Assembly (NCBI GenBank): GCA_021731085.1
Contig: JAKFYB010000011.1
Location: 1 to 64,000 of the forward strand
Length of the DNA: 64,000 nucleotides
Source: Dehalococcoidia bacterium
GTDB lineage: Bacteria; Chloroflexota; Dehalococcoidia; DSTF01; JACRBR01
Reading direction: 5' to 3'
Translations under genes and position numbers: made by a program
Shown here: one piece after another, positions 11,341-23,538 of the stretch
How positions within the stretch are numbered: the stretch's first letter is position 1
How the letters are laid out: each line of letters opens with the position of its first letter
Notes under the pieces: generated by a model
What the model saw: the letters and a program-made list of their open reading frames with translations, nothing else
Database searches by the model: none
What the model was told of the DNA's origin: nothing

Positions 11341-12039
11341 TCAAGTTTGCGCCGTGCTGACCGGACTGGACACTAGCGGATCGCGCCAATTGATATGCAA
11401 CTCGGACTCTTCATCTGGGAGCAACGTACGGTTACTGCTTGCTTGCGCCCATTGGCGCAGAAACGGATGTGTGTTCCAGAGCTCGGGATAGAACTGGCGA
11501 AACACGAATCGGACAAAATGGCCGAGACTAAGCGGCCCAGCACTCGCGACTCGACATGACCCGGCGACGACCGTTAAGTGGCTCGCCGCATGTCCGGGAG
11601 CCGCTGCAGCTGGATCGAAGTCGAAACGAACGGGACTCCGCAACCGAATGTCTCCGATGGAGGGTGGCCCAAAGTCTTCAAGAAGGTCGAGGAGGGGGAT
11701 CTCTAGAAGCAATTCTGGATCGAAATCGAAAGGACAGGGGATGTAGACGAGCCGGTGTCCGACAAGGTCTTCGCGTTGGAAGTCAAAACTGACTTGCAGC
11801 AGGGCGCCATCCCTCAGGACGACAGAGAATTGTCTGTTGCGGAGCCAAGTTGTGTACTCGGCGAGCGATGGACTGTCGTTTTGCCACAGCGCCAGAGCGC
11901 CGGTGGTTCCAACCCACGAAACACGTAGTCGAGCGCCTGCCCCTGTCACTCCTACGGGATTGGAGTCGAGGACGATTCCCGCGCTGGATAGCGCATCAAT
12001 CAGATTGCGTATGTCCGTCGCGCAGCTACTCGAGGTCAT
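11341..12039 (-). CDS. DUF2290 domain protein, partner of upstream helicase
   Basis: The 232-residue protein matches the DUF2290 pattern from memory: a C-terminal half with LLEDFGPPSIGDIRLRSPVR, then ASHLTVVAGSCRVASAGPLS and FVRFVFRQFYPE. It is soluble with no signal peptide. Its biochemical role is unknown. Its ATG lies 14 bases inside the helicase gene, so the two are coupled. I recall helicase-DUF2290 pairs being listed as candidate anti-phage systems. Base composition is less GC-rich than the core genome genes, in line with transfer. Confidence 0.7.
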   Translation of the reverse strand: MTSSSCATDIRNLIDALSSAGIVLDSNPVGVTGAGARLRVSWVGTTGALALWQNDSPSLAEYTTWLRNRQFSVVLRDGALLQVSFDFQREDLVGHRLVYIPCPFDFDPELLLEIPLLDLLEDFGPPSIGDIRLRSPVRFDFDPAAAAPGHAASHLTVVAGSCRVASAGPLSLGHFVRFVFRQFYPELWNTHPFLRQWAQASSNRTLLPDEESELHINWRDPLVSSPVSTAQT

Positions 12040-14257
12040 GCGCTTCTGCAGAATCGCGCTCTAGGAGTCTCGCGATGCTTGTGCGTAGATCTGCTGGCAG
12101 CGAGTTGAAATCCAAATCACCAGCCTGCGCTGAGCGCAAGAGGTCACGCAGGTTTTGCTCCAACTGACGAAGCCGGGCGATTTCGTCATCTGTGCGGTCC
12201 CGATGCACCATGCGCATACGCTGCAGCTCCTCGGTTGTCGGAATCTGGAGTTCGAGTGCGAAGTTTCGTTCACGCGCCGCCGTGATTTCGTCCTGAAGCA
12301 GTTGCATCCCAGATCCCCATCCCGTTATCCGTATCCAAGCTCGGGATCGAGTAATGGCCGTAAATAGCGTGTTTCTGAGCCTAAGGAGCTCGTGGCCAGA
12401 TTGACACTCTTGGGCGTTCAATACGTAGACCATCGGTGCCTCGTTACCCTTGGACCTGTAGATATTTGCTACCGCGATCGAGTCGCTAGAAAAGAGCTCG
12501 TCAACGCTGGATGTTACGCCCGCTAGGTGCGACTCGATTTTGCGGGCCTGCAGCGCGTCCGCCAAGATGCGAGATGACGATTTTGAAGTGTAAGCGTCAG
12601 GAAGGATCACGAGAACGTCATCAGTTTCAAGTTCGTCCTCGGTGATGTTAGTCGCGATCTGCTCCGCGACCCACTCGGCCTGTTCTCTCTCGCTCTCGAA
12701 CGTGCGGGCTACGATGGCGTCGTCTTGACTTAACAAGTCTGTGAAATACTCGGGGTACGAGGTCGGAGCGCGGGTGAGCGTTACTCGCGACCCTTCCGTA
12801 AGTGTGCCATCGACAACTTGGTAACCAATGGATTCCCACTGATGTGGATCGTCGAAGTGCTGAACAGGGCCCTCGGCACGGTAGATACCAAACCCAAGTG
12901 CGTGCGCCAGTGCGAGTGCCCACGGCGTATTTCGGTAACAGATTGGCAAGGTGATATCTTGCCGAGGCATGCCAGGATTGCTTCGCAATTCCACCCGAGG
13001 ATTGCCGCCTTCGTCGGTTCCGAAGAGATCTCGGGTCGAGGGCATAGTTGCTTCTGAAAGCTTCTGCAACTCGTCGTACGCAAATACAACTCTCTTCGGC
13101 GGGCGAGCGAACTTATGCGCGAGTTGGAAGAAGGGCTCAGGCAAGTCCTGCCCTTCGTCAATTAGGATGGCGTCAAACATAGTTGGCATGTCAGCTACCT
13201 GGTCCGCGAGGTCAAGTAACTCCTTACAAACGCCTCGGAATTCGTCTCCGCGCCGGAACTTCGCGCGTGCGTAGCCGAAATCCCGTACTGGAGCCGCCAA
13301 CGCACGAGCCATCTCGGAATACAGTCCGGGTTTGCCCGTCCCGCCCCACGCATGCAGAACCCTCAGTCGTTGCCAATTCGGTTCATCTGCGGCGTGTTCG
13401 AACGTAAATCGACGAATCAGATCGATGAACTGCTGGTAAAGAGAACGCGTGTAGAAGACGACGGCAATGTCCCAGTCGGGATGCTGAGTGTGCAGATATG
13501 CCGCCTTTAGTGCGAGCACAACTGTTTTGCCCGAACCAGCGAGACCTCTGATGCGTTGCGGACCTTCGGGCATTTCGATCGCGGCGGCGTTTTGCCACCG
13601 ATCCAAGTTTGCGATTTCTCGCTCGATCTTCTTGATCACTGCGCCGCGCGAACTTGCTCTAGTAACGCCCTCGCGCCGCTTCGCCGGCTTGATGGTCGAA
13701 ACGCGCTGGATGACTGCGTTAAGCGGGGCCCACAGTTCCTCACTCAACGGTGGCAGCTGCGCGATTGCGTGCGCCAAATCCTGCACACCGGCGAACCTTC
13801 CGCTTGCCACCGATGGAACGGGTGTCGTGATGGAATTGGCGAATACAGTTACTACTTCGGGTTGGACTGCGAGGTCTCGTCCTCTTCGCAGGCTGTCGTT
13901 TCGCTCAAGATTTGCTTTGAGAACAAAGAAGAGCCGATCCTGTTGATCTTGCAGGGATGCCCAGCGGCTCACATCGCCGTCCGGCGGGGTGCTGGGCTCG
14001 ACTGTAAATGCGACTAGGCCGTGTTCGCGTGTGAGCAAGAGCGCATCAACATCGACTTGGCTGTCAGCAGATGCGATTACTGGATAACCCAGGAACAGCG
14101 TTCCGTCGAGGCGAAGGCCCTCCACGGACGAGATGAGCTGTTGTGCAATCTCGACCGGGTACTTCGTTTGGCCGCGAACAACCTCTATCATTCCCGTTCC
14201 CCAATCCGCACATGCGTGTCCAATCGGCAAGATATCCCCCAATGCCCTTGAGCGCAT
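12026..14257 (-). CDS. UvrD/Rep-like SF1 helicase with N-terminal nuclease-like region
   Basis: The 743-residue protein has a Q-motif Gln (LDRWQNAAA), Walker A GLAGSGKT at about 238-245, Walker B ILIDEGQDLP at about 367-371, motif III VVFAYDELQKLS and motif VI LFTAITRSRAW. This marks it as a DNA-translocating SF1A ATPase. The first ~200 residues include VDVDALLLTREHGLVAFTVE, which resembles a NERD/PD-(D/E)xK core, but the Lys is not evident. An ATG at 14257 with GAGGAG upstream was preferred over a GTG at 14296. The region is visibly less GC-rich than flanking genes. With the overlapping DUF2290 gene it forms a candidate defence module. Confidence 0.8.
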   Translation of the reverse strand: MRSRALGDILPIGHACADWGTGMIEVVRGQTKYPVEIAQQLISSVEGLRLDGTLFLGYPVIASADSQVDVDALLLTREHGLVAFTVEPSTPPDGDVSRWASLQDQQDRLFFVLKANLERNDSLRRGRDLAVQPEVVTVFANSITTPVPSVASGRFAGVQDLAHAIAQLPPLSEELWAPLNAVIQRVSTIKPAKRREGVTRASSRGAVIKKIEREIANLDRWQNAAAIEMPEGPQRIRGLAGSGKTVVLALKAAYLHTQHPDWDIAVVFYTRSLYQQFIDLIRRFTFEHAADEPNWQRLRVLHAWGGTGKPGLYSEMARALAAPVRDFGYARAKFRRGDEFRGVCKELLDLADQVADMPTMFDAILIDEGQDLPEPFFQLAHKFARPPKRVVFAYDELQKLSEATMPSTRDLFGTDEGGNPRVELRSNPGMPRQDITLPICYRNTPWALALAHALGFGIYRAEGPVQHFDDPHQWESIGYQVVDGTLTEGSRVTLTRAPTSYPEYFTDLLSQDDAIVARTFESEREQAEWVAEQIATNITEDELETDDVLVILPDAYTSKSSSRILADALQARKIESHLAGVTSSVDELFSSDSIAVANIYRSKGNEAPMVYVLNAQECQSGHELLRLRNTLFTAITRSRAWIRITGWGSGMQLLQDEITAARERNFALELQIPTTEELQRMRMVHRDRTDDEIARLRQLEQNLRDLLRSAQAGDLDFNSLPADLRTSIARLLERDSAEAHDLE

Positions 14258-14401
14258 TAGCTGCTCCTCAAATCCTTCCCCCAGGGCCTTAGGCACGTTT
14301 CGCCGCGCCAGCCCAAGGCTTTCGGGGAATGGAATGGTGCCGCACGGGAATGGTGCGTAGGCTCATGTTTGAGTGCATAGAAAAGTGAGTGTTCGAAAGC
14401 A

Positions 14402-15526
14402 TCAGGCTGCGGCCTTGCGCACCATCGCCCAGATGAGTTCGACGTCTGGAGGTGCGGCTTCCGGCATCGCGAGATCGGCCACGTACTCTCCGAGTTCGCG
14501 CATCACGCCTTCGATCATCTCACGCGCCTCGGCGAGGATGAATCGACCACTGTCATCCAGCGGATCGTGTCCGTCGAACTCAACGTCCGCGATTTGCTTG
14601 ATCACTTCCTCGATCGCCGCCAGCTCACTTGCCCGCGCCAGCACCTCTTGCCGGACAGCAATCACAAGCATCGTGGGTAGGTTCTTTAATGCCGGTTCCT
14701 GGGTGAGGTCGAAAATATCCAGTTCCTTAGCCGGGATCGGCAGCGTCTGCCGAGCCGGCGTGTCCGACAGCGCCCTCTCCGCATGCTCGCGCCAGCGCAG
14801 CCGGCGAGCGACGTCATCTTCATCGCTGTCGGGATGGACGTCGTATGCCATGCCCCAGTCCGGAAACAACGGCACGTCCGCGCCCGACCAGGCGGCCACG
14901 TCGCCCCATGTCACCTTGCGGCGCTTTCCACGCCGTTTGCAAGGCAGCGCCCCAGACGCGATCGCTTCCTCCATCACGGCCTCGATCTCATCCCATCGGT
15001 TGTCCCATGCCTCGCTCGTCGGGTCGCCATCTTCGTCGAGGTCGTCCGGTGCCCACGGCCCTGCCAACAGGTAGTGCTCGATCACCGTGTCGAGGTCGTC
15101 GATCTCACCGGCAAGCTCTGACCTGCGGGCTTGGAGACGCGACTCCGTAGTTGGCTCCTTCGTGTCCAGCCCGATGTACGCGCCGAGCAGCGTGAAGTCG
15201 AGGGCGCAGATGCGCAGCGATTGGAGCCAGCCCATCTTGATGGATGTCTGCCGCGCCTGCTCCCGCATGATCACGAGGGTGACGGCGAGTTCCACGTTGA
15301 CGGCGTTGATCAGGCCCAACAGCCGAGAGAACTCCTTGGCGTCGTGGCTTGGCGTCGTGTGGAGCACGAGCGGGTCGGGCTTCTCCCCGATGCGCATGGA
15401 CTCCATGACGAGGATCGCACGTTCCTTGGCCGTCAGGCCGGGCATGAGGCGATCGAGACGCTTGTCGGTCACGGGAGCCTCCTCAATCCAACGATATATT
15501 TCTGTCGAGCGCACGGGCCTACCCAA
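14402..15526 (-). CDS. unknown island protein, 374 residues
   Basis: I do not recognise this protein. It starts at a TTG (15526) or at a GTG four codons on. It is soluble and mostly helical, with a basic patch (CKRRGKRRKVTW) near residue 200 followed by an acidic stretch (PDSDEDD). Codon use looks like a real gene, and it follows the 15564-15962 gene by 37 bases in the same direction, so the two probably form one transcript. It belongs to the accessory island. Confidence 0.6.
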   Translation of the reverse strand: MGRPVRSTEIYRWIEEAPVTDKRLDRLMPGLTAKERAILVMESMRIGEKPDPLVLHTTPSHDAKEFSRLLGLINAVNVELAVTLVIMREQARQTSIKMGWLQSLRICALDFTLLGAYIGLDTKEPTTESRLQARRSELAGEIDDLDTVIEHYLLAGPWAPDDLDEDGDPTSEAWDNRWDEIEAVMEEAIASGALPCKRRGKRRKVTWGDVAAWSGADVPLFPDWGMAYDVHPDSDEDDVARRLRWREHAERALSDTPARQTLPIPAKELDIFDLTQEPALKNLPTMLVIAVRQEVLARASELAAIEEVIKQIADVEFDGHDPLDDSGRFILAEAREMIEGVMRELGEYVADLAMPEAAPPDVELIWAMVRKAAA

Positions 15527-15563: not shown

Positions 15564-15962
15564 TCATCGTTGTCCCTTCTTCACCAGGCGCGGACCGAGC
15601 GCCGCTTCGACGGTGCGCAGGCGCTCCTCCAGTTCGCCGACCTCCAGCAGCTTGGCGGCAGCTTGGGCGGCGGCGATCAGCAACCGCCCGCGAGCGACGG
15701 AGTTCTCCGTGTTGAGGGCATCGGTGACGACGATCTCCACGAGCCTGCGGATCTCCGTGATGGACTGCAGGCCCTCGAAGTCGTAGGCGCCGGCGATCGT
15801 GTTCTCCTTGCGCCGTCGCAGGCCGCCGAGGCGTCGGGCTTCGACGGCAGCCTCTGCGTGTTCGGGCGAATGCCAGAAGCAGACGGACTCTTCGCGAAGT
15901 GGAGTTGCTCCACAACGCTGGCCATCCTTGGTCGGCGCCGAACAGGCGCGAATGCCTACCAT
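15564..15962 (-). CDS. small protein with N-terminal Cys/His zinc-knuckle-like motif
   Basis: The 132-residue protein starts at ATG 15962. The first 35 residues carry spaced Cys and His (CSAPTKDGQRC, then CFWHSPEH), a likely zinc site. A basic GGLRRRKEN segment follows, then a long helical C-terminus (ARGRLLIAAAQAAAKLLEVGELEERLRTVEAAL). It looks like a nucleic-acid-associated island protein; no function can be given. It is in the same direction as the unknown gene at 14402. Confidence 0.6.
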   Translation of the reverse strand: MVGIRACSAPTKDGQRCGATPLREESVCFWHSPEHAEAAVEARRLGGLRRRKENTIAGAYDFEGLQSITEIRRLVEIVVTDALNTENSVARGRLLIAAAQAAAKLLEVGELEERLRTVEAALGPRLVKKGQR

Positions 15963-16222: not shown

Positions 16223-16642
16223 CTACTGCGCGGTGTGCGTCAGCGCGTGTTCCGTCGCCGCTTTCATCGTCGGGAACACCTGGCCGCAGGCGCCGCAGCC
16301 GAACGAATCGCCGCTCTCCGTCTTCGCGGCCTTCTTCTTCGGCGCGCTCTTCTTTGTCGCCTTCTTGGGGGGTGCCTTCTTCCTTGTCGGCTTCTTCGTC
16401 GCTTTGGGCTTCGGTTCGCGCGCGGGCTTGAGGTCGCCATCCAGGCTCCAGAAGCGCCACCCGTTCGCCGCGATCCCGCCCATCACCGCCTTCGCGGCGG
16501 AACTCGGGCTCTTGTAGTCCGTCCCCGCGACCCGGTAGCGCAGGCCGTCCTCCGTCTCCATCACGACGCAGGTGTGGTCCTCCTTCTTGTACCGCGCGAC
16601 GAGCACGGTCCCCGGCGCTAGTTCTCTGTTCTCGAGTGGCAT
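16223..16642 (-). CDS. RAMA-domain protein with histone-H1-like tail and C2H2-like zinc finger
   Basis: The 139-residue protein starts at ATG 16642, seven bases after AAGGAG. Residues about 8-70 match the RAMA fold from memory (LAPGTVLVARYKK, then SPSSAAKAVMGG and NGWRFWSLDG). RAMA modules are predicted to read modified DNA and are usually fused to methylases or restriction enzymes. Residues about 75-110 are Lys/Ala/Pro-rich repeats (KKATKKSAPKKKAAK) like the histone H1 tail. The end carries CGACGQVF followed by HALTHT, a single C2H2-like finger. A small free-standing reader with a DNA-coating tail is unusual. The ParB-methyltransferase in the same island could supply the modification. Confidence 0.65.
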   Translation of the reverse strand: MPLENRELAPGTVLVARYKKEDHTCVVMETEDGLRYRVAGTDYKSPSSAAKAVMGGIAANGWRFWSLDGDLKPAREPKPKATKKPTRKKAPPKKATKKSAPKKKAAKTESGDSFGCGACGQVFPTMKAATEHALTHTAQ

Positions 16643-16868: not shown

Positions 16869-17261
16869 ATGACCAGCCAATACGCATTTGTCGGCACCTA
16901 CGAGGCGCGGTCCTTCCCGAAGGGATGGGCGCACCCGAAGCGCAACGGACGCTACGTCCCGCTCCTCCCCTACGGCTACGCCGGTGACGAGACCGACGAC
17001 TTTGTCGCCACGCCGGAGACGACGATGCCGCCATCGAGGCTGCAGGGCGAGAACGAGATCGCCGCTTACGAGGCCGTCAGCGAAGGCACGCCGATTTCGC
17101 CCGCATTCCCCGACACGCCCCAGGGGCGGCTCGACCTCTGCAACTGGTGCGCAGCCAACGAAGACATTCTCGGGAAGCGGAAGGTCGATGCCGAAGCCTG
17201 GGCGGCGATCCTCTTCGGCGATGCCGCGATCACGGGCGACGGCAGCGTCATCGCGCAGTAG
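16869..17261 (+). CDS. unknown island protein, 130 residues
   Basis: The start is ATG 16869 after a strong AAAGGAG; longer frames upstream run through the palindrome and are rejected. The protein is soluble and acidic (begins MTSQYAFVGTYEARSFPK). It has a single CNWC near residue 100. I do not recognise a family. It is the only clear + strand gene in this part of the island and is divergent from the RAMA gene, so the symmetric region at 16694-16848 probably controls both. Confidence 0.6.
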   Translation: MTSQYAFVGTYEARSFPKGWAHPKRNGRYVPLLPYGYAGDETDDFVATPETTMPPSRLQGENEIAAYEAVSEGTPISPAFPDTPQGRLDLCNWCAANEDILGKRKVDAEAWAAILFGDAAITGDGSVIAQ

Positions 17262-17266
17262 GTTCG

Positions 17267-17440
17267 TCATTGCCTTGCCTCCACGCCGTCGCGCTCGCGG
17301 CGGCGTTCCTCGTCAAGCACGAGGGCCTTCACCAACTCGAACAGACCCGTTTCCAAACAGCCCAGGCACTCGCCGTCCGACCGCTTCCGGACGTGAACAA
17401 GCGATCCGCGCGCATCTCTCACGAGTTCGAGGTTTGGCAT
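17267..17440 (-). CDS. 57-residue microprotein with strong ribosome site
   Basis: ATG 17440 follows an ideal AAAGGAGG. The reading frame (MPNLELVRDARGSLVHVRKR onward) has a CLGCLETGLFELVKALVLDEE core and an Arg-rich end, with a possible Cys pair (CLGC). No family is recognised. It sits between the methyltransferase and the + strand gene at 16869, and its stop is five bases from that gene's stop. Confidence 0.55.
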   Translation of the reverse strand: MPNLELVRDARGSLVHVRKRSDGECLGCLETGLFELVKALVLDEERRRERDGVEARQ

Positions 17441-17589: not shown

Positions 17590-18822
17590 CTACTTCTTCT
17601 CAAGGCACACAGCCTCCTTGCCGCTGAACGACTCCCAGCGAGCTAACACGACGCTCCCATAGTGCGCATCCAATTCCATCCCGTAGCAGACGCGCCCGGT
17701 GCGCTCGGCGGCGATCAGCGTTGAGCCTGATCCGAGAAACAGATCGAGCACGACGTCGCCGGCCTTGGACGAGTTCTCGATCGCGCGTTCGACCAATGGC
17801 AGCGGCTTCATCGTCGGATGAGCCTCGCTGTCGCCCGGCCGATCGATCTCCCACACGTCCGACTGGTTGCGATCGCCGCACCAGTGGTGCTTCTGTCCCT
17901 CACGCCAGCCGAACCAGATCGGCTCGTACTGCCTTTGGTAGTCGGCCCGTCCCATGACGAAGCGATCCTTCCGCCAGATGATCGTGTCCGACCAGTGCCC
18001 GTCGGCCTCGGCCAACGCCCGTGAGACTGACGCCCACTCCTTCGTGCTCATGCAGATGTAGATCGCGCCGTCGACGTTGCTGACGATGTTGTTGGACCAG
18101 GCACGGATGAATGCGTCCCATTGTTCCGCGGGCATCGCGTCGTTCTGGATGCGCCGCTTGCGCTGGTTCTTCTGCTGCCCGCCGTGGTCTCCGAGGGCGA
18201 CGTTGTAGGGCGGGTCGGTGAAGCAGAGCGCCGGGCGGACATCGCCGAGCAGGCGCGACACGGCCGCACTGTCGGTCGCGTCCCCGATCAGGACGCGGTG
18301 GTCGCCGAGCGCCCACAACGCGCCACGTTTGGCCCGTGTGGCGGCACGTGCGGCCTCCAGCGCCGCCTCGACGTCGAACGCCTCCGCCTGCTCACGCTTC
18401 TCGCGCACATCCAGTGACTTCAGCAGCTTGTCGAGTTCGCCAGCCTCAAAGCCCGACAGCGTGAGGTCGATCCCGTCCACGCCCTGGAGGTCGGCCAGCA
18501 TGTGCGCCAGGAGATCCTCGTCCCACTCGCCACCGATCCTGTTCAGGGCCATGTTCAGCAGTCGGGACTGTTCGACCGAGATGTCGAGCCAGATCACGGG
18601 TACGGTCTTCATGCCGAGCTTCCGCGCAGCAAGCAGGCGTTGGTGGCCGCCGACGACGGTCTTGTCTTCCCTCCTCGCCAAGACAGGCTGGATGAAGCCA
18701 AACTCCTGGATGCTCTTGGTCAGCGCTTCGAGCTCGCGCGGTGAGATGCGCCGCGGGTTGGCGGGGTCGGGCTTGAGGTGGTCGATCGTGACGTGCTCGA
18801 TCTCGACTGCGGTGGTCATCAT
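17590..18822 (-). CDS. ParB-like nuclease domain fused to N4/N6 DNA methyltransferase
   Basis: The 410-residue protein has an N-terminal ParB/sulfiredoxin-like domain (residues about 8-95, with GGHQRLLAARKLG). The C-terminal adenine/cytosine-N methyltransferase is of the beta group: DPPY at 203-206 comes before the SAM-binding LDLFLGSGSTLIAAE. Such fusions are common in phages and mobile elements and modify element DNA. The start at 18822 follows GGAGG; an ATG at 18843 overlaps the upstream terminase stop and is the alternative. It lies directly downstream of the small terminases and near the RAMA protein, a possible reader of its mark. Confidence 0.85.
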   Translation of the reverse strand: MMTTAVEIEHVTIDHLKPDPANPRRISPRELEALTKSIQEFGFIQPVLARREDKTVVGGHQRLLAARKLGMKTVPVIWLDISVEQSRLLNMALNRIGGEWDEDLLAHMLADLQGVDGIDLTLSGFEAGELDKLLKSLDVREKREQAEAFDVEAALEAARAATRAKRGALWALGDHRVLIGDATDSAAVSRLLGDVRPALCFTDPPYNVALGDHGGQQKNQRKRRIQNDAMPAEQWDAFIRAWSNNIVSNVDGAIYICMSTKEWASVSRALAEADGHWSDTIIWRKDRFVMGRADYQRQYEPIWFGWREGQKHHWCGDRNQSDVWEIDRPGDSEAHPTMKPLPLVERAIENSSKAGDVVLDLFLGSGSTLIAAERTGRVCYGMELDAHYGSVVLARWESFSGKEAVCLEKK

Positions 18823-18839
18823 CTTTGCCTCCACGTTGT

Positions 18840-19304
18840 TCATGACGCGCCTCGGTCGAAGCGCGCGAACGGATCGTCGATGGGCTGCGTTGCTTGTGCC
18901 TGGACGCGCGTGCGTGAGGCCGGCGACATGCCGAACTCCGCCAACAGCAAGCGCACCTGCTCTCCGGCTTTGTTGGCGATCCCGACGTAGGGGCTCTGGA
19001 CGGGGTAGCCGTTCGGGCTCTTGAGAACGACGCCGTATTCCTGCAGCGCCGCGATCGCCTCCAGCCACCTGCCGTAGGCGTCGCAGTAGAGCGCGAGCGC
19101 CGCGCGGTCGACCGTCGTCAGCAGGCCCATCGCGGTGAGATGCTTCGAGATGCGCCGCCACTCCTTCCGGGCTGCCGAAGAGAGTTCAGGCGGACACGTC
19201 GGCCTTCCGTCGCCCACCGGCTCGCGCGGATTCATACGGTCGGCGCGCAGCGTGCCGCGCAAGGCCTTGATGCTTGTAGGTACGGGCTTCGCTCCCCGCT
19301 TCAT
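18840..19304 (-). CDS. phage terminase small subunit, P27 family (copy 1)
   Basis: The 154-residue protein fits the P27 family: MKRGAKPVPTSIKALRGT start, CPPELSSAARKEWRR, LLTTVDRAALALYCDAYGRW, and LLAEFGMSPASRTRV at the end. P27 small terminases recognise the packaging site and load DNA on the large terminase. No large terminase follows; the next gene is the ParB-methyltransferase. A ~42-nt motif lies 57 bases upstream of the start, as at the second copy. Confidence 0.85.
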   Translation of the reverse strand: MKRGAKPVPTSIKALRGTLRADRMNPREPVGDGRPTCPPELSSAARKEWRRISKHLTAMGLLTTVDRAALALYCDAYGRWLEAIAALQEYGVVLKSPNGYPVQSPYVGIANKAGEQVRLLLAEFGMSPASRTRVQAQATQPIDDPFARFDRGAS

Positions 19305-19360
19305 CGCTGACCCCCCTCTACCCTAATCTGGCAACGCACACACGCCGGAACGCCAGCGCT

Positions 19361-19402
19361 TTCCTATTCCCGTAATCGCTGAAAATCAGACCGCCCTCCC
19401 CC
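19361..19402 (-). repeat. pre-terminase motif A (candidate packaging/cos-like site)
   Basis: Aligned with 19949-19992, this segment is about 80% identical over ~42 nt of non-coding DNA (shared TTCC-A-TC-CG-AATCGC, CAGACC and a C-rich end, with one or two single-base gaps). It lies three bases past the stop of terminase copy 2 and 57 bases before the start of copy 1. Cos sites of P27-type phages lie upstream of the small terminase, hence the proposal. Confidence 0.5.
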
Positions 19403-19405
19403 ATC

Positions 19406-19882
19406 TCAACCCTCCACCATCTTTCGGTAGCGTTCCATGACGCGGATGCCGCGCTCTTCGTCTTCCGGATCAGCAGGCCGTTCGTGGGCGATGCCCGATC
19501 GCAGCCGGGCGATCGGCGTCAGTCCAAGTTGTCGTGAGAGTTCGGTGACGGTCTGCTCGGCGTCGCGCTTCATCAGCCACAGCGGGTTGCGCACGAGGTT
19601 GCCCTTCTGTCCGCGGATCAACTTCCCGGACTTGCCGAGCATCGACTCCAACTCACACCAGTCAGCCCAGGCCACGCAGTACCGGACGAGCACAGCACGG
19701 TCGATCTTGGCGAGGACGCCGGCCTCTTCGAGTTCTGGCACAACACGCTGCCACTCGGCGCGGGCCTCGCCGGTCAGGACCTTCGGCAGCGCCGGGCGCG
19801 CGACGGTGACGGCCTTGCCGCTCGTGCGACGCTTGTTGCGCCTGCGCGCGTAAGGCAGAGGCAGTGGTCCGCGCTCACCCAT
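19406..19882 (-). CDS. phage terminase small subunit, P27 family (copy 2)
   Basis: The 158-residue protein has the same layout as copy 1 but is clearly diverged: LPKVLTGEARAEWQRVVPEL, LAKIDRAVLVRYCVAWADW, and LSRQLGLTPIARLRSG. A basic N-terminus (YARRRNKRRTSGK) is added. ATG 19882 is the start; the longer frame upstream is not coding. Two small terminases in a row without a large subunit is unusual and suggests duplication or capture of a packaging-specificity gene. Confidence 0.82.
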   Translation of the reverse strand: MGERGPLPLPYARRRNKRRTSGKAVTVARPALPKVLTGEARAEWQRVVPELEEAGVLAKIDRAVLVRYCVAWADWCELESMLGKSGKLIRGQKGNLVRNPLWLMKRDAEQTVTELSRQLGLTPIARLRSGIAHERPADPEDEERGIRVMERYRKMVEG

Positions 19883-19948
19883 CACTCGTCTCCGTGCGGA
19901 TACGTTGCCGAGAAACCCGTACGCAGTCGGAGAAGGGGGTGTGAGCGG

Positions 19949-19992
19949 TTCCCACTCTCGGAATCGCCCAAAAACCAGACCGGCCCCACCCC
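19949..19992 (-). repeat. pre-terminase motif B (candidate packaging/cos-like site)
   Basis: Second copy of the motif at 19361-19402. It lies 66 bases upstream of terminase copy 2, about the same distance as motif A from copy 1. The conserved parts include AATCGC, CAGACC and a run of C on the + strand. Confidence 0.5.
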
Positions 19993-20088
19993 TTGGTTGA
20001 CACGCGGCGTTGCCGTCGCTGCCTCGGTTGCTAGGATCGAACGAGCTCTCGCGTCCAGCCCCCAAGCAGATGCGGGGAGCCCGTTCAG

Positions 20089-20118
20089 GGTCGGCGCCCC
20101 GCGGTTGAGGCGCCGACC
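20089..20118. promoter_or_regulatory. 10-bp-stem hairpin upstream of the two-TM gene
   Basis: GGTCGGCGCC and GGCGCCGACC flank a 10-nt loop, a very stable stem. It ends 16 bases before the ATG of the membrane microprotein and would also lie in the upstream region of terminase copy 2. It could be a terminator or a leader structure. Confidence 0.45.
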
Positions 20119-20134
20119 TTCCCTTGGTGTGCGG

Positions 20135-20311
20135 ATGATCCACGTAGCAATCGGCTTCTTCATCGTTTCCCTAACCTTCGCCGCGCTGTGCGTGGTGTCG
20201 TTCGTTGTGCCAGGGGCACCGAGCGTCGACCTGATGTTTGTCATGGGAACCGTCGTTGATGTGGTCGTCGCCACGGCACTCGTTGTGGTGGTTTGGCTCT
20301 TTGGCCTGTAG
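20135..20311 (+). CDS. 58-residue two-TM membrane microprotein
   Basis: ATG 20135 to TAG 20311. Two hydrophobic helices (VAIGFFIVSLTFAALCVVSF and a Val-rich VVDVVVATALVVVVWLF) are joined by a short polar turn. Size and layout resemble small holins or toxin-like membrane peptides, but no lysin gene is nearby. The ribosome site is weak. Palindrome copy 4 begins on the base after its stop codon, the same arrangement as at 2735. It is convergent with the primase. Confidence 0.5.
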   Translation: MIHVAIGFFIVSLTFAALCVVSFVVPGAPSVDLMFVMGTVVDVVVATALVVVVWLFGL

Positions 20312-20336: not shown

Positions 20337-23012
20337 TCATTCCTGGCCCTCCATCACCCGTTGGAGAGCGTTGCGGCGGCACTCGTCGCAGAGGTTACTG
20401 CTGCCGTCGCTCAGGGTCCTGCGGCACCGCTTGCATCGCCGGCCGTCAGCAGGCGGGGTGTAGGGGTGTAGGGTGGTGTAGGGTTTTTCAGGGTTTTTTC
20501 GCGTAAGCTCATTTTCTCTAGAGCTAACCCCGTTTTCCGGATCGTCAGCTTCGCGACCATACACCCGGTCGCCAGACCCTACACCCGAAGCCGCCTCCGC
20601 GAGGTCGAGTTGCGGTTCGGCGACCGCGGACAGCAGCCCAACGCCGAGGTAGCGGTTGCCGCGCTTCGTCCGTCGACGGTCGAACTTCATGTTCATGCGG
20701 CTTCCGAACACGGTGTTCGTCAGCGTCTCGCGCGAGGCCAGCCGTTGTACCTCAGACCAGTCGCGATACACGCGGTAGAGGTCATTCGCCCCGACCGAGA
20801 ATTCCGTGCCGACAACGCAACACTCGTCTAAGAACTGGGCGAGGGGATCGGAGTCGACGCGGTAGCTCTCCGTTGCGTCGCGAACCACGCCCGGCGTCAC
20901 GAGTCCATCCCGCTGCCACATCAGGGCTCCTCGCACGGCCCACACGAGGATGCCTGGCAGTTCGTCGTGGAGCTTTGACTGCAGCGTCTTGTCATCGGCG
21001 GTGCCGCGAAACTGACGAAGGAACGGGATCAGCCGCACACGCCGCCAGAAGCCCACTGAGTCATCGCCTACGACAGGCTTGTGATTGACCGCGAGCCAGT
21101 ACTTGGCCACGGGGACGAACGTGAAGAACTCAGCGTGCAGGAAGCGTGCGGTGATCGGGTCACATCCCGTCAGCGCCTTGATGCGCGCTTCGTTAAGCCG
21201 CGTGCCCTCGTTGGTCTCGGACGACGTGACGAGGCGCTTGCCGGCAAGGGCCGCCAGATCATTCGGGATGGATGATTGGTGCTGGCGCTCGAAGCTGGAG
21301 AACGGTGCGTTGAACGAGTAAGCGCCTGCCAGCTTCTGAAGGACGGCGAGGAACACGCTCTTACCGTTAGCGCCCGTGCCGTGGCAAAGGAACATGCACT
21401 GTTCGCGCGTATCGCCGGAGAGGCTGTAGCCCACCGCGTGTTGGATGAAGCGGATCATCTCGGCGTCGCCGCCGAAGACCTCCTCCAGAAACTGCTCCCA
21501 GCGTGGCGCCGAAGCGTTCTCGTCATATGTGATGTCTGAGCACAGTGTGATGCGGTCCGCATGGCGACCGTCTCGAAGGTTCCCGGTTCGGAGGTCGACA
21601 ACGCCGTTCGCAACTCCGAGAAGCCAGCCGTCGCTGTCCCAGCGGTCGCCTGCGTCGTTCAACGGAGGCTGCGCTCGGCCGATCTTGAGCATTGCGTCGA
21701 TGCGGGCACCGTTCTCGCTCGCGATGGCGAACTTCGCCTCCGCTTTTCGCTCCTCGAAGTCGGCTTGTCGGACCGACGAAAGCCCTCGATGCCGCGCAGC
21801 GAGAATCGCCAGCCTCACAACTTCTGCATCGGCATCGCCAATCCAGCGATGGCCGCTCCACACAAGCCATCTCTGACGACGGTGATTGAAGCGGAGTCGG
21901 TCCCCGTACTGGCGAGCGAAAAGTTCCGCATTGCCGGCGTCTGTGCGGGGGAACTCGTGCTCCGCTCCAGGCGACACGATGGCGGGATCGTGCCCACGTC
22001 CAACGCTGAGACGGAGAGCACGTTTAAAGTCCTGCCAGCCCTTTCCTGCTCCGCGGTTGTGAAAGCAGTGGCCCGCGTATGGGCCATCAGGCAGCGTTTG
22101 CCCCACCCCGCACTCGAACGGTCCACCGCCATCATGCAGCGGGCACTGTGGAAGGTGGTACCAGGTCACCCCGTTCGCGTCTGGCGGTTGCTCGCGATAC
22201 TCGAGGCCGTGCTCCACAAGAATGTCGACAAGAGCCGCGCTGCCGGAGGTGGCTCTGATCGTGGGAGCCTGCTTGGGCGGTTCCGCCAGTGCTTCGAGCT
22301 GGTCGCGCGAAACTAGGTCGAGAGCGCGAGGCACGTCGGTCAACGCGGAACGACGGTGTGGTCGATCCGGGAGGGCGTCGCCTTTGACCTTGAGGGTTCC
22401 GGCCAGGCCGATGATGCGCGCTGCGTTGTGCACGCTGGTGTCGACGTGGACTTCGTCCGAGTTGAACTTCGCGGCCAGTGCCTCCAGCACCGCCTTCACC
22501 AGTGCCAACGAATCGGCGTCGTTGGGGAGGTCGATGCGAAAGAGCAGGTAGGCTCCGTTGCCCGACATAACGCACAAGGGCGCGGGCCAGCCAAGCGCGG
22601 CCAAGTGGGCGGCGATCGCGTCCCTATGGTCCTCGGCCGCGAGAAGCTCCACGTCTGTACTGCTGATGCCGCTCGGTCGATTCGCGTCGATGTCGACGAA
22701 CAGCCAACGTCGACGAAGGATGTCCGTGTCGGCGGTAGTGTTCTCGGCGCGATCGACGATCCTATTCGCCGCGCGCGCGAGCAGGGCAGAGGAGGCGGGG
22801 TTGAGCGTGACGAAGATATTGGCGCGGCCGTCCAACTTAGCTACAGCGGCAACAGCAGCATCGACATTGTTGAAGTATCCTGAGGCCGTCGACTTGTACT
22901 GGCCGTACTTCGGCACGCGGATCTCGAACACGTCGCCGCTCTCATGCAGCACTGAGAGGAAACGCCGCACGTCGTGCGGCTCGAAGGCAGGCGCGGCCAG
23001 ATGGTGGCTCAC
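20337..23012 (-). CDS. PrimPol/D5-type primase-helicase (phage/plasmid P4 family)
   Basis: The 891-residue protein starts at a GTG. The N-terminus is an AEP/PrimPol-like primase: WLFVDIDA metal residues near 107-109 and HVDTSVHNAARIIGLAGT near 189-206. A Cys/His-rich segment (CPLHDGG, then HCFHN) follows at 290-319. The C-terminal half is D5N plus SF3 helicase with Walker A GTGANGKS at 545-552. The end has a four-Cys zinc ribbon (CKRCRR, then CDEC). It would start replication of the element by making primers and unwinding DNA. Its 5' end lies about 45 bp from the junction with comM, so it is the first gene from that end. Confidence 0.88.
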   Translation of the reverse strand: MSHHLAAPAFEPHDVRRFLSVLHESGDVFEIRVPKYGQYKSTASGYFNNVDAAVAAVAKLDGRANIFVTLNPASSALLARAANRIVDRAENTTADTDILRRRWLFVDIDANRPSGISSTDVELLAAEDHRDAIAAHLAALGWPAPLCVMSGNGAYLLFRIDLPNDADSLALVKAVLEALAAKFNSDEVHVDTSVHNAARIIGLAGTLKVKGDALPDRPHRRSALTDVPRALDLVSRDQLEALAEPPKQAPTIRATSGSAALVDILVEHGLEYREQPPDANGVTWYHLPQCPLHDGGGPFECGVGQTLPDGPYAGHCFHNRGAGKGWQDFKRALRLSVGRGHDPAIVSPGAEHEFPRTDAGNAELFARQYGDRLRFNHRRQRWLVWSGHRWIGDADAEVVRLAILAARHRGLSSVRQADFEERKAEAKFAIASENGARIDAMLKIGRAQPPLNDAGDRWDSDGWLLGVANGVVDLRTGNLRDGRHADRITLCSDITYDENASAPRWEQFLEEVFGGDAEMIRFIQHAVGYSLSGDTREQCMFLCHGTGANGKSVFLAVLQKLAGAYSFNAPFSSFERQHQSSIPNDLAALAGKRLVTSSETNEGTRLNEARIKALTGCDPITARFLHAEFFTFVPVAKYWLAVNHKPVVGDDSVGFWRRVRLIPFLRQFRGTADDKTLQSKLHDELPGILVWAVRGALMWQRDGLVTPGVVRDATESYRVDSDPLAQFLDECCVVGTEFSVGANDLYRVYRDWSEVQRLASRETLTNTVFGSRMNMKFDRRRTKRGNRYLGVGLLSAVAEPQLDLAEAASGVGSGDRVYGREADDPENGVSSRENELTRKNPEKPYTTLHPYTPPADGRRCKRCRRTLSDGSSNLCDECRRNALQRVMEGQE

Positions 23013-23054: not shown

Positions 23055-23070
23055 ACACGGATGCCCGTGT
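23055..23070. other. island/comM junction with short dyad (candidate attachment site)
   Basis: comM homology begins at 23062. The dyad ACACGG-ATGC-CCGTGT straddles this point. Bases to the left belong to the island; bases to the right encode the conserved CPCGY of ComM. The 11-mer ACGGATGCCCG (23057-23067) recurs at 23586-23596, past the end of the comM remnant. Confidence 0.5.
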
Positions 23071-23538
23071 GGCTACTCCGGGGATTCGACGCGCGAGTGC
23101 TCGTGCTCAGGCTCGACAATCACGCGGTATCAGAAGCGCATCTCAGGGCCGCTGCTCGACCGCATCGACATCTTCGTCGAGGTGCCGCGTGTGGAGTATG
23201 AGAAGCTCGCCGGGGAGGGCGGCGGTGAGACATCGGAGATCGTGCGGGAGCGGGTGGAGGACGCGCGTCGTCGCCAGTTGGCACGGCTGCAAGGCACAGG
23301 TCTGATGTCGAACGCGGAGATGTCGGCGACGGAGGTGCGGCTCCACTGCCAGGCGCAGATGGACGAGCAGGCGCAGTCGCTGCTCCGGCTGGCGATGGCG
23401 CAGTTGTCGCTGTCGGCGCGGGCGTTCCACCGCATCCTGAAGCTCGCTCGCACCATCGCCGACATGGAGCCGTCCGACATCATCCACTCGCACCACCTGG
23501 CGGAAGCCGTACAGTACCGGCAACGCGTGTCCGGCTAG
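23062..23538 (+). pseudogene. comM: comM (YifB, Mg-chelatase-like) 3' fragment
   Basis: The frame reads CPCGYSGDSTRECSC, then ITRYQKRISGPLLDRIDI and RAFHRILKLARTIADME, ending EAVQYRQRVSG. This is the C-terminal ~160 residues of the ~500-residue ComM/YifB helicase used in natural transformation. The N-terminal two thirds, including Walker A and B, are absent from the window. Upstream the frame runs into antisense of the primase gene and makes no sense as ComM. The gene was therefore cut by insertion of the island; the missing part should lie left of the window or has been lost. Confidence 0.85.

Follow-up and report, generated by a model that had tools for sequence, protein, structure and literature searches.

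Why should one stretch of bacterial DNA carry two genes for a phage-type small terminase, each preceded by what appears to be the same short motif? The question arises in the window (the whole 64,000-nt stretch of DNA that was analysed, from a Dehalococcoidia bacterium), in which the earlier note had described two motifs before two P27 small terminases; the coordinates, the matches to PF05119 and phrog_83 and the alignment score all agree with that description. The motif copies lie at 19361-19402 and 19949-19992, are both read on the minus strand, and are separated by 56 nt from the start of terS1 (19304) and by 66 nt from the start of terS2 (19882). Both TerS proteins exceed the PF05119 family cut-off, with a profile match over their length.

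18840..19304, minus strand: terS1, P27-type small terminase of 154 aa (PF05119 1e-29, 103 bits; phrog_83; in a clade with the TerS of C20 and L023)
19406..19882, minus strand: terS2, P27-type small terminase of 158 aa (PF05119 7e-24, 84 bits; phrog_83; in a clade with phages L017-L020 and L206)

In a local alignment, the regions upstream of the two genes matched in 36 of 49 columns with two gaps (SW score 42); this score was reached by 0.05% of 2000 dinucleotide-shuffle pairs and by no other sampled stretch of the window. The two TerS proteins share just 30% identity; the motifs are therefore far more similar than the genes that they adjoin, and the pair does not derive from a recent gene duplication. 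Nor is the motif a common genomic repeat: an exact search of the 3.58-Mb genome for the core pattern GGTCTGRTTTTN1-4GCGATT returned two places only, which are the two motifs, and a control pattern had zero matches. A 90-nt DNA query detected no third copy in the genome, and an Rfam search gave a sub-threshold chance match only.

In phages with the gene order HNH-terS-terL, the stretch from HNH to terS contains a G-run and, after it, (A)ATCTCT. We modelled this box as a PWM from 110 non-redundant terS-terL loci, with this genome and phage HK97 left out. One phage box served as the seed of this PWM, and scores above 8 bits were reached by about 7 of 110 shuffled sequences; what counts as evidence is score and position combined. 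When run blind, a motif search (w=30, all upstream regions) had converged on the Bacillota-specific AGGCTCTTTTTT near terS rather than on the G-run box, and the box-seeded search was used instead. Each motif copy contains a match to the independent PWM.

19361..19402, minus strand: left box of cos1, the motif of the earlier note (best model match 19378-19401; 13.5 bits)
19949..19992, minus strand: left box of cos2, the motif of the earlier note (best model match 19968-19991; 11.2 bits)

The two copies take the top ranks on their strand of the 64-kb window, in which one unrelated forward-strand site also reaches 11.2 bits, and the null probability per random 200 nt was 0.0000 for cos1 and 0.0018 for cos2. 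The box of HK97, which lies beside the known cos end, scores 17.0 bits in the same PWM, and the cos2 box of the window scores below most phage boxes; 18 nt of the cos1 box (GGGGGAGGGCGGTCTGAT) are identical to satellite L016. In the staphylococcal phages PVL and phi12 the box is not in the same place, and these phages were left out as support. The motif is present in phage cos regions, including those of HK97, phage L020 and many HNH-terS loci; with this and with its restriction to two places in the genome, both outcomes that the earlier note had named as refuting are contradicted. Its position just upstream of two related genes would also suit a promoter or translation signal that was duplicated together with a terS gene. 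We find this explanation barely credible, however, given that the motif is common to phage cos regions far from terS (L020, L206) and that a recent duplication would not have left the genes so diverged.

Viral contigs can start at the true end of a linear phage DNA. Among 30 viral contigs with a contig-end start near terS, 12 begin 36-59 nt upstream of terS. The starts of L017, L018 and L019 lie exactly 15 nt before GTACGGGTT, and those of six further phages (L037, L038, L039/L040, L049, L059 and L068) lie 15 nt before CCGC(GAAATT). In HK97, the end is 49 nt before terS, and the TerS site spans +15 to +29 relative to the cut (PMC11331095); the 15-nt register of the contig starts is the register of the HK97 mature end and TerS site. 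When this register is transferred to the window, the following positions are predicted.

19932..19948, minus strand: cos2 cut region with predicted physical end (+1) at 19937 (register with the contig starts of L017, L018 and L019 and with HK97)
19341..19360, minus strand: cos1 cut region with predicted physical end (+1) at 19349 (register with the contig starts of L037, L038, L039, L049, L059 and L068)

Cuts are accordingly predicted at 19937 for cos2 and at 19349 for cos1, and by the HK97 and contig-start register the 42-nt motifs lie to the left of them. The layout resembles that of the HK97 cos (HNH gp74, TerS gp1), which has a G-run/ATCAAATCT box left of the cut, a TerS site 15-29 nt to the right of it and terS about 50 nt from the end. 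Unlike the element in the window, HK97 is a complete phage with one cos and one terS, and its TerS has no PF05119 match.

The part of each site next to terS differs between the two genes. Regions before terS2 have GTACGGGTT(T) in common, and regions before terS1 have forms of CCGCGAAATTAGG..GGGGGG.

19905..19931, minus strand: cosB2, candidate TerS2 binding site, core GTACGGGTT at 19922-19914 (23.8 bits)
19318..19340, minus strand: cosB1, candidate TerS1 binding site, GTTGCCAGATTAGG, a divergent form of CCGCGAAATTAGG (common to C20, L023, L109 and L016)

The cosB2 model was trained without the window, and the next match after cosB2 in the 64 kb reaches 11.4 bits. A strict cosB2 pattern scan of viral contigs gave five matches, of which three were unrelated places; the others were L025 again and L216, a newly recognised satellite with a single terS2. 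In L017, cosB2 directly precedes terS2; in L018, L019, L020 and L206, it precedes a methylase-(RAMA)-terS2-terL operon instead of terS2 itself, and in L020 it comes after HNH and a 14.6-bit box. The element therefore tracks the TerS2 type and not the neighbouring gene.

An HNH or short reading frame crosses the cos region in several loci, and the motif could be a coding remnant, namely the tail of an HNH gene whose 3' end extends across this region, with no function as DNA. The HNH frame traverses the region in C20, L023 and L025, and a short frame persists before terS2 in the window; before terS1, however, the frame is stopped, and it differs among satellites, yet the DNA stays alike. The HK97 box lies well outside the HNH gene, and the third codon positions of cosB2 are invariant. 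Indeed, GTACGGGTT, as GTA-CGG-GTT, does not vary across the 8 terS2 regions compared, even though the rare codons GTA and GTT together account for just 7 of the 58 Val codons of these genes and only 5 of 55 conserved residues within terS2 retain a single codon; the constraint therefore acts on the DNA. We consider a coding relic very improbable. Judged from the sequence, the motifs are the left part of two complete cos-like sites, each comprising a box, a GC-rich cut region and a TerS-type-specific element. The earlier proposal that cos lies just upstream of terS thus stands insofar as each terS has such a putative site of its own, but by the HK97 register the 42-nt motif is the part left of the cut and not the cut site. 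The presence of two candidate packaging specificities (two SPECIFICITIES) in one element is well supported anatomically.

If the specificities are distinct, do they point to different phages? In the TerS tree, the two proteins of the window fall in the TerS1 and TerS2 groups, respectively. In phages, a fully supported branch separates the TerLs paired with TerS2 (L017-L020 and L206), together with the TerL of L041, from all TerLs paired with TerS1. The second TerS of C43 and the first TerS of L208 group with phage L041 (support 98) as a third type, whose pairing with a distinct TerL is seen in one phage (L041) only. Tandem terS genes occur in the window, L016, L025, L208 and C43, and 5 of these 5 combine different TerS types, in both orders, which favours the assembly of different cassettes over duplication. 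Both cassettes might nevertheless serve one helper, with the second TerS-cos acting as a decoy that titrates or poisons the helper terminase, or raising packaging efficiency. Satellite interference with helper packaging is known from the PICI literature, but the phages that carry the two TerS types have very different TerLs, and single-TerS satellites exist for each type; we therefore regard a single helper as improbable. The genome of the window lacks a TerL of the TerS2 kind, and no complete helper prophage was found there; the capsid-like genes on contigs C2, C4 and C36 have no such terL beside them.

What kind of element carries the tandem? The gene order on the minus strand is D5 primase, terS2, terS1, ParB/methylase fusion, and the 57-aa, RAMA, 132-aa and 356-aa proteins, and the features around the two cassettes are as follows.

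23059..23538, plus strand: C-terminal part of comM, integration junction at the D5 end (PF13335/PF01078)
20337..23012, minus strand: D5-type primase-helicase, replication (PF08706, PF19263; phrog_6088 DNA primase)
17590..18843, minus strand: ParB-N6/N4 methylase, hallmark gene of the satellite family (PF01555, PF02195; copies 90-93% identical on C20 and C43)
17267..17440, minus strand: 57-aa conserved satellite gene (93-95% identical in C20 and C43)
16869..17261, plus strand: 130-aa satellite ORF (gene call; partial relative in L208)
16223..16642, minus strand: DUF2924/RAMA protein (PF11149, PF18755; 93-96% identical in C20 and C43)
15564..15962, minus strand: 132-aa conserved satellite protein (74% identical in C43; also in L109 and L236-L238)
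14402..15472, minus strand: 356-aa conserved satellite protein (52% identical in C43; also in L109)

The N-terminal part of comM is on contig C36, where it adjoins a large serine recombinase, and the core TGCCCGTGT is common to both junctions; the other end of the element, with the integrase, is thus on a contig other than that of the window. No large terminase, portal or capsid genes are present between the comM junction and 14402, and no terL, portal or capsid genes are present in the relatives L016, L026, L207 and L109 either. The locus is probably part of a phage satellite, with replication genes and without a full virion gene set. The PICI order (left-end int beside an stl/AlpA regulator, pri-rep and packaging genes) is unseen in the window, which holds one end of the element, and we do not assign the element to the PICIs. 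The relatives L109 and L208 carry a tyrosine integrase and HTH genes; other comM elements use a large serine recombinase.

As a separate observation, comM is a recurrent place of satellite insertion (at 23059 in the window, and in L025, L210, L211, L236, L237 and L239); where examined, the insertion is at the NPCPCG motif, and a large serine recombinase is located at the other end in L211 and on C36.

The terS content of the relatives varies. Contig C43 of the same genome has two terS genes and a methylase 93% identical to that of the window; L016 has the order D5-terS2-terS1-methylase, L025 has comM-D5-terS1-HNH-terS2, and L208 has terS-terS2-methylase. A single terS1 is found in L026 and L109, and a single terS2 in L207, L210 and L216; TerS-less relatives also exist. 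L109 comes from a MAG labelled Chloroflexi and is the same locus as L232 of G191, which belongs to the same family as the genome of the window; this makes an affiliation with Chloroflexota likely. Contig C20, also of the same genome (L014 9578-19022, L015 150-1271), carries integrase-rep-HNH-terS-terL-methylase without portal or capsid genes, and this is a satellite-like element with its own large terminase. Two viral contigs, L052 and L055, have two terS genes each, with no terL seen, beside methylase genes; a cos-like box precedes the first terS only.

Single-TerS and TerS-less relatives are common, as would be expected if satellites exchanged cassettes by recombination and the tandem were transient, with one working cassette beside a relic. 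Damaged copies occur, as terS2 is frameshifted with a damaged N-terminus in L208 and split in L209, and cosB1 of the window is divergent. On the other hand, the ORFs, cut regions and TerS-site elements of both cassettes are intact in the window, and tandems are present in at least five elements, in both orders. Such turnover is, in our view, an unlikely account of the tandem, although less so than the other alternatives.

The reading that we prefer is a satellite with two cassettes, cos2-terS2 and cos1-terS1, that uses the terminases of two helper lineages, and we consider this reading probable. Once a helper infects the cell, replication would turn the satellite into concatemers. Each TerS would recognise its own element and not the other (TerS1 cosB1, TerS2 cosB2), at about 15-25 nt from the cut of that site, and would recruit the large terminase (with the HNH nuclease) of a different helper-phage lineage. 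The recruited terminase would cut at that cos, and the satellite would be packaged into the heads of that helper. Packaging by two helpers had been suggested in the earlier note; the separate TerL clades and the tandems of different TerS types fit this suggestion, and it is from anatomy and phylogeny that we infer binding, cleavage, orthogonality and the use of two helpers. A cross-reaction between TerS1 and TerS2 is compatible with the data. One TerS using both sites would free a piece of ~590 bp, which is an argument for orthogonality rather than evidence of it. That the satellite family as a whole stacks cos-terS cassettes as interchangeable helper adaptors, so that one element could spread by two unrelated helpers, is a broader proposal that we hold to be evenly balanced.

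Satellites with two cos sites and satellites with their own TerS are already known. EcCICFT073 and SaPIbov4 have two cos sites (PMC6092414); in EcCICFT073, both are functional, and their deletions affect phages lambda and phi80 differently (PMC6092414). EcCICFT073 has no TerS and its two cosN are alike, whereas the element in the window has its own TerS proteins and a TerS-type-specific element at each cos. In pac SaPIs such as SaPIbov1, the satellite-encoded TerS redirects the helper TerL (PMC5052747), but packaging is by the headful mechanism with one TerS, in contrast to the cos-type sites and two TerS of the window. SaPIbov5 and similar cos SaPIs have a cos resembling that of the helper, and helper cos phages package them (PMC5052747); these satellites have no complete TerS of their own and one TerS specificity, whereas the window has two TerS. 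In the open-access literature, we found no account of a single satellite with two cos-terS units that differ in specificity, although a prior description elsewhere is possible, and nothing relevant on terS genes that are duplicated or present twice. A pair of cos-terS cassettes with different specificities thus appears to be new.

How satellites keep pace with changing helpers is an open question, and stacked cassettes offer a testable answer, in which packaging range is modular and combinable; if this is true, adaptor stacking keeps options open when helpers change. The motif, the register with the TerS site 15 nt from the end, and the contig-end evidence together can predict cos in many uncultured phages and satellites of the HNH type. 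The ends of metagenomic contigs seem to coincide with physical phage ends to the base and could be used to map cos sites at scale. In Bacillota phages (loci L165-L188 and others), the position about 45 nt upstream of terS is taken by another conserved element, AGGCTCTTTTTTTATGCC, which is probably their TerS site.

Several neighbouring and other loci were also observed. L196, at 5944-9644 on contig C2, has an HK97-like capsid gene, a separate integrase and an excisionase-like gene, with no recognised terminase nearby, and is possibly a capsid-bearing satellite or a remnant. Beside the satellite, at 11341-14296 on the minus strand of the window, lies a candidate two-gene defence system consisting of a DUF2290 protein and a UvrD-like helicase, both of which are PADLOC matches. 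At 20040-20311, the plus strand of the window encodes a membrane protein of 58 aa whose leader is rich in hairpins (GGTCGGCGCC..GGCGCCGACC), and both this protein (93%) and its leader recur on contig C20.
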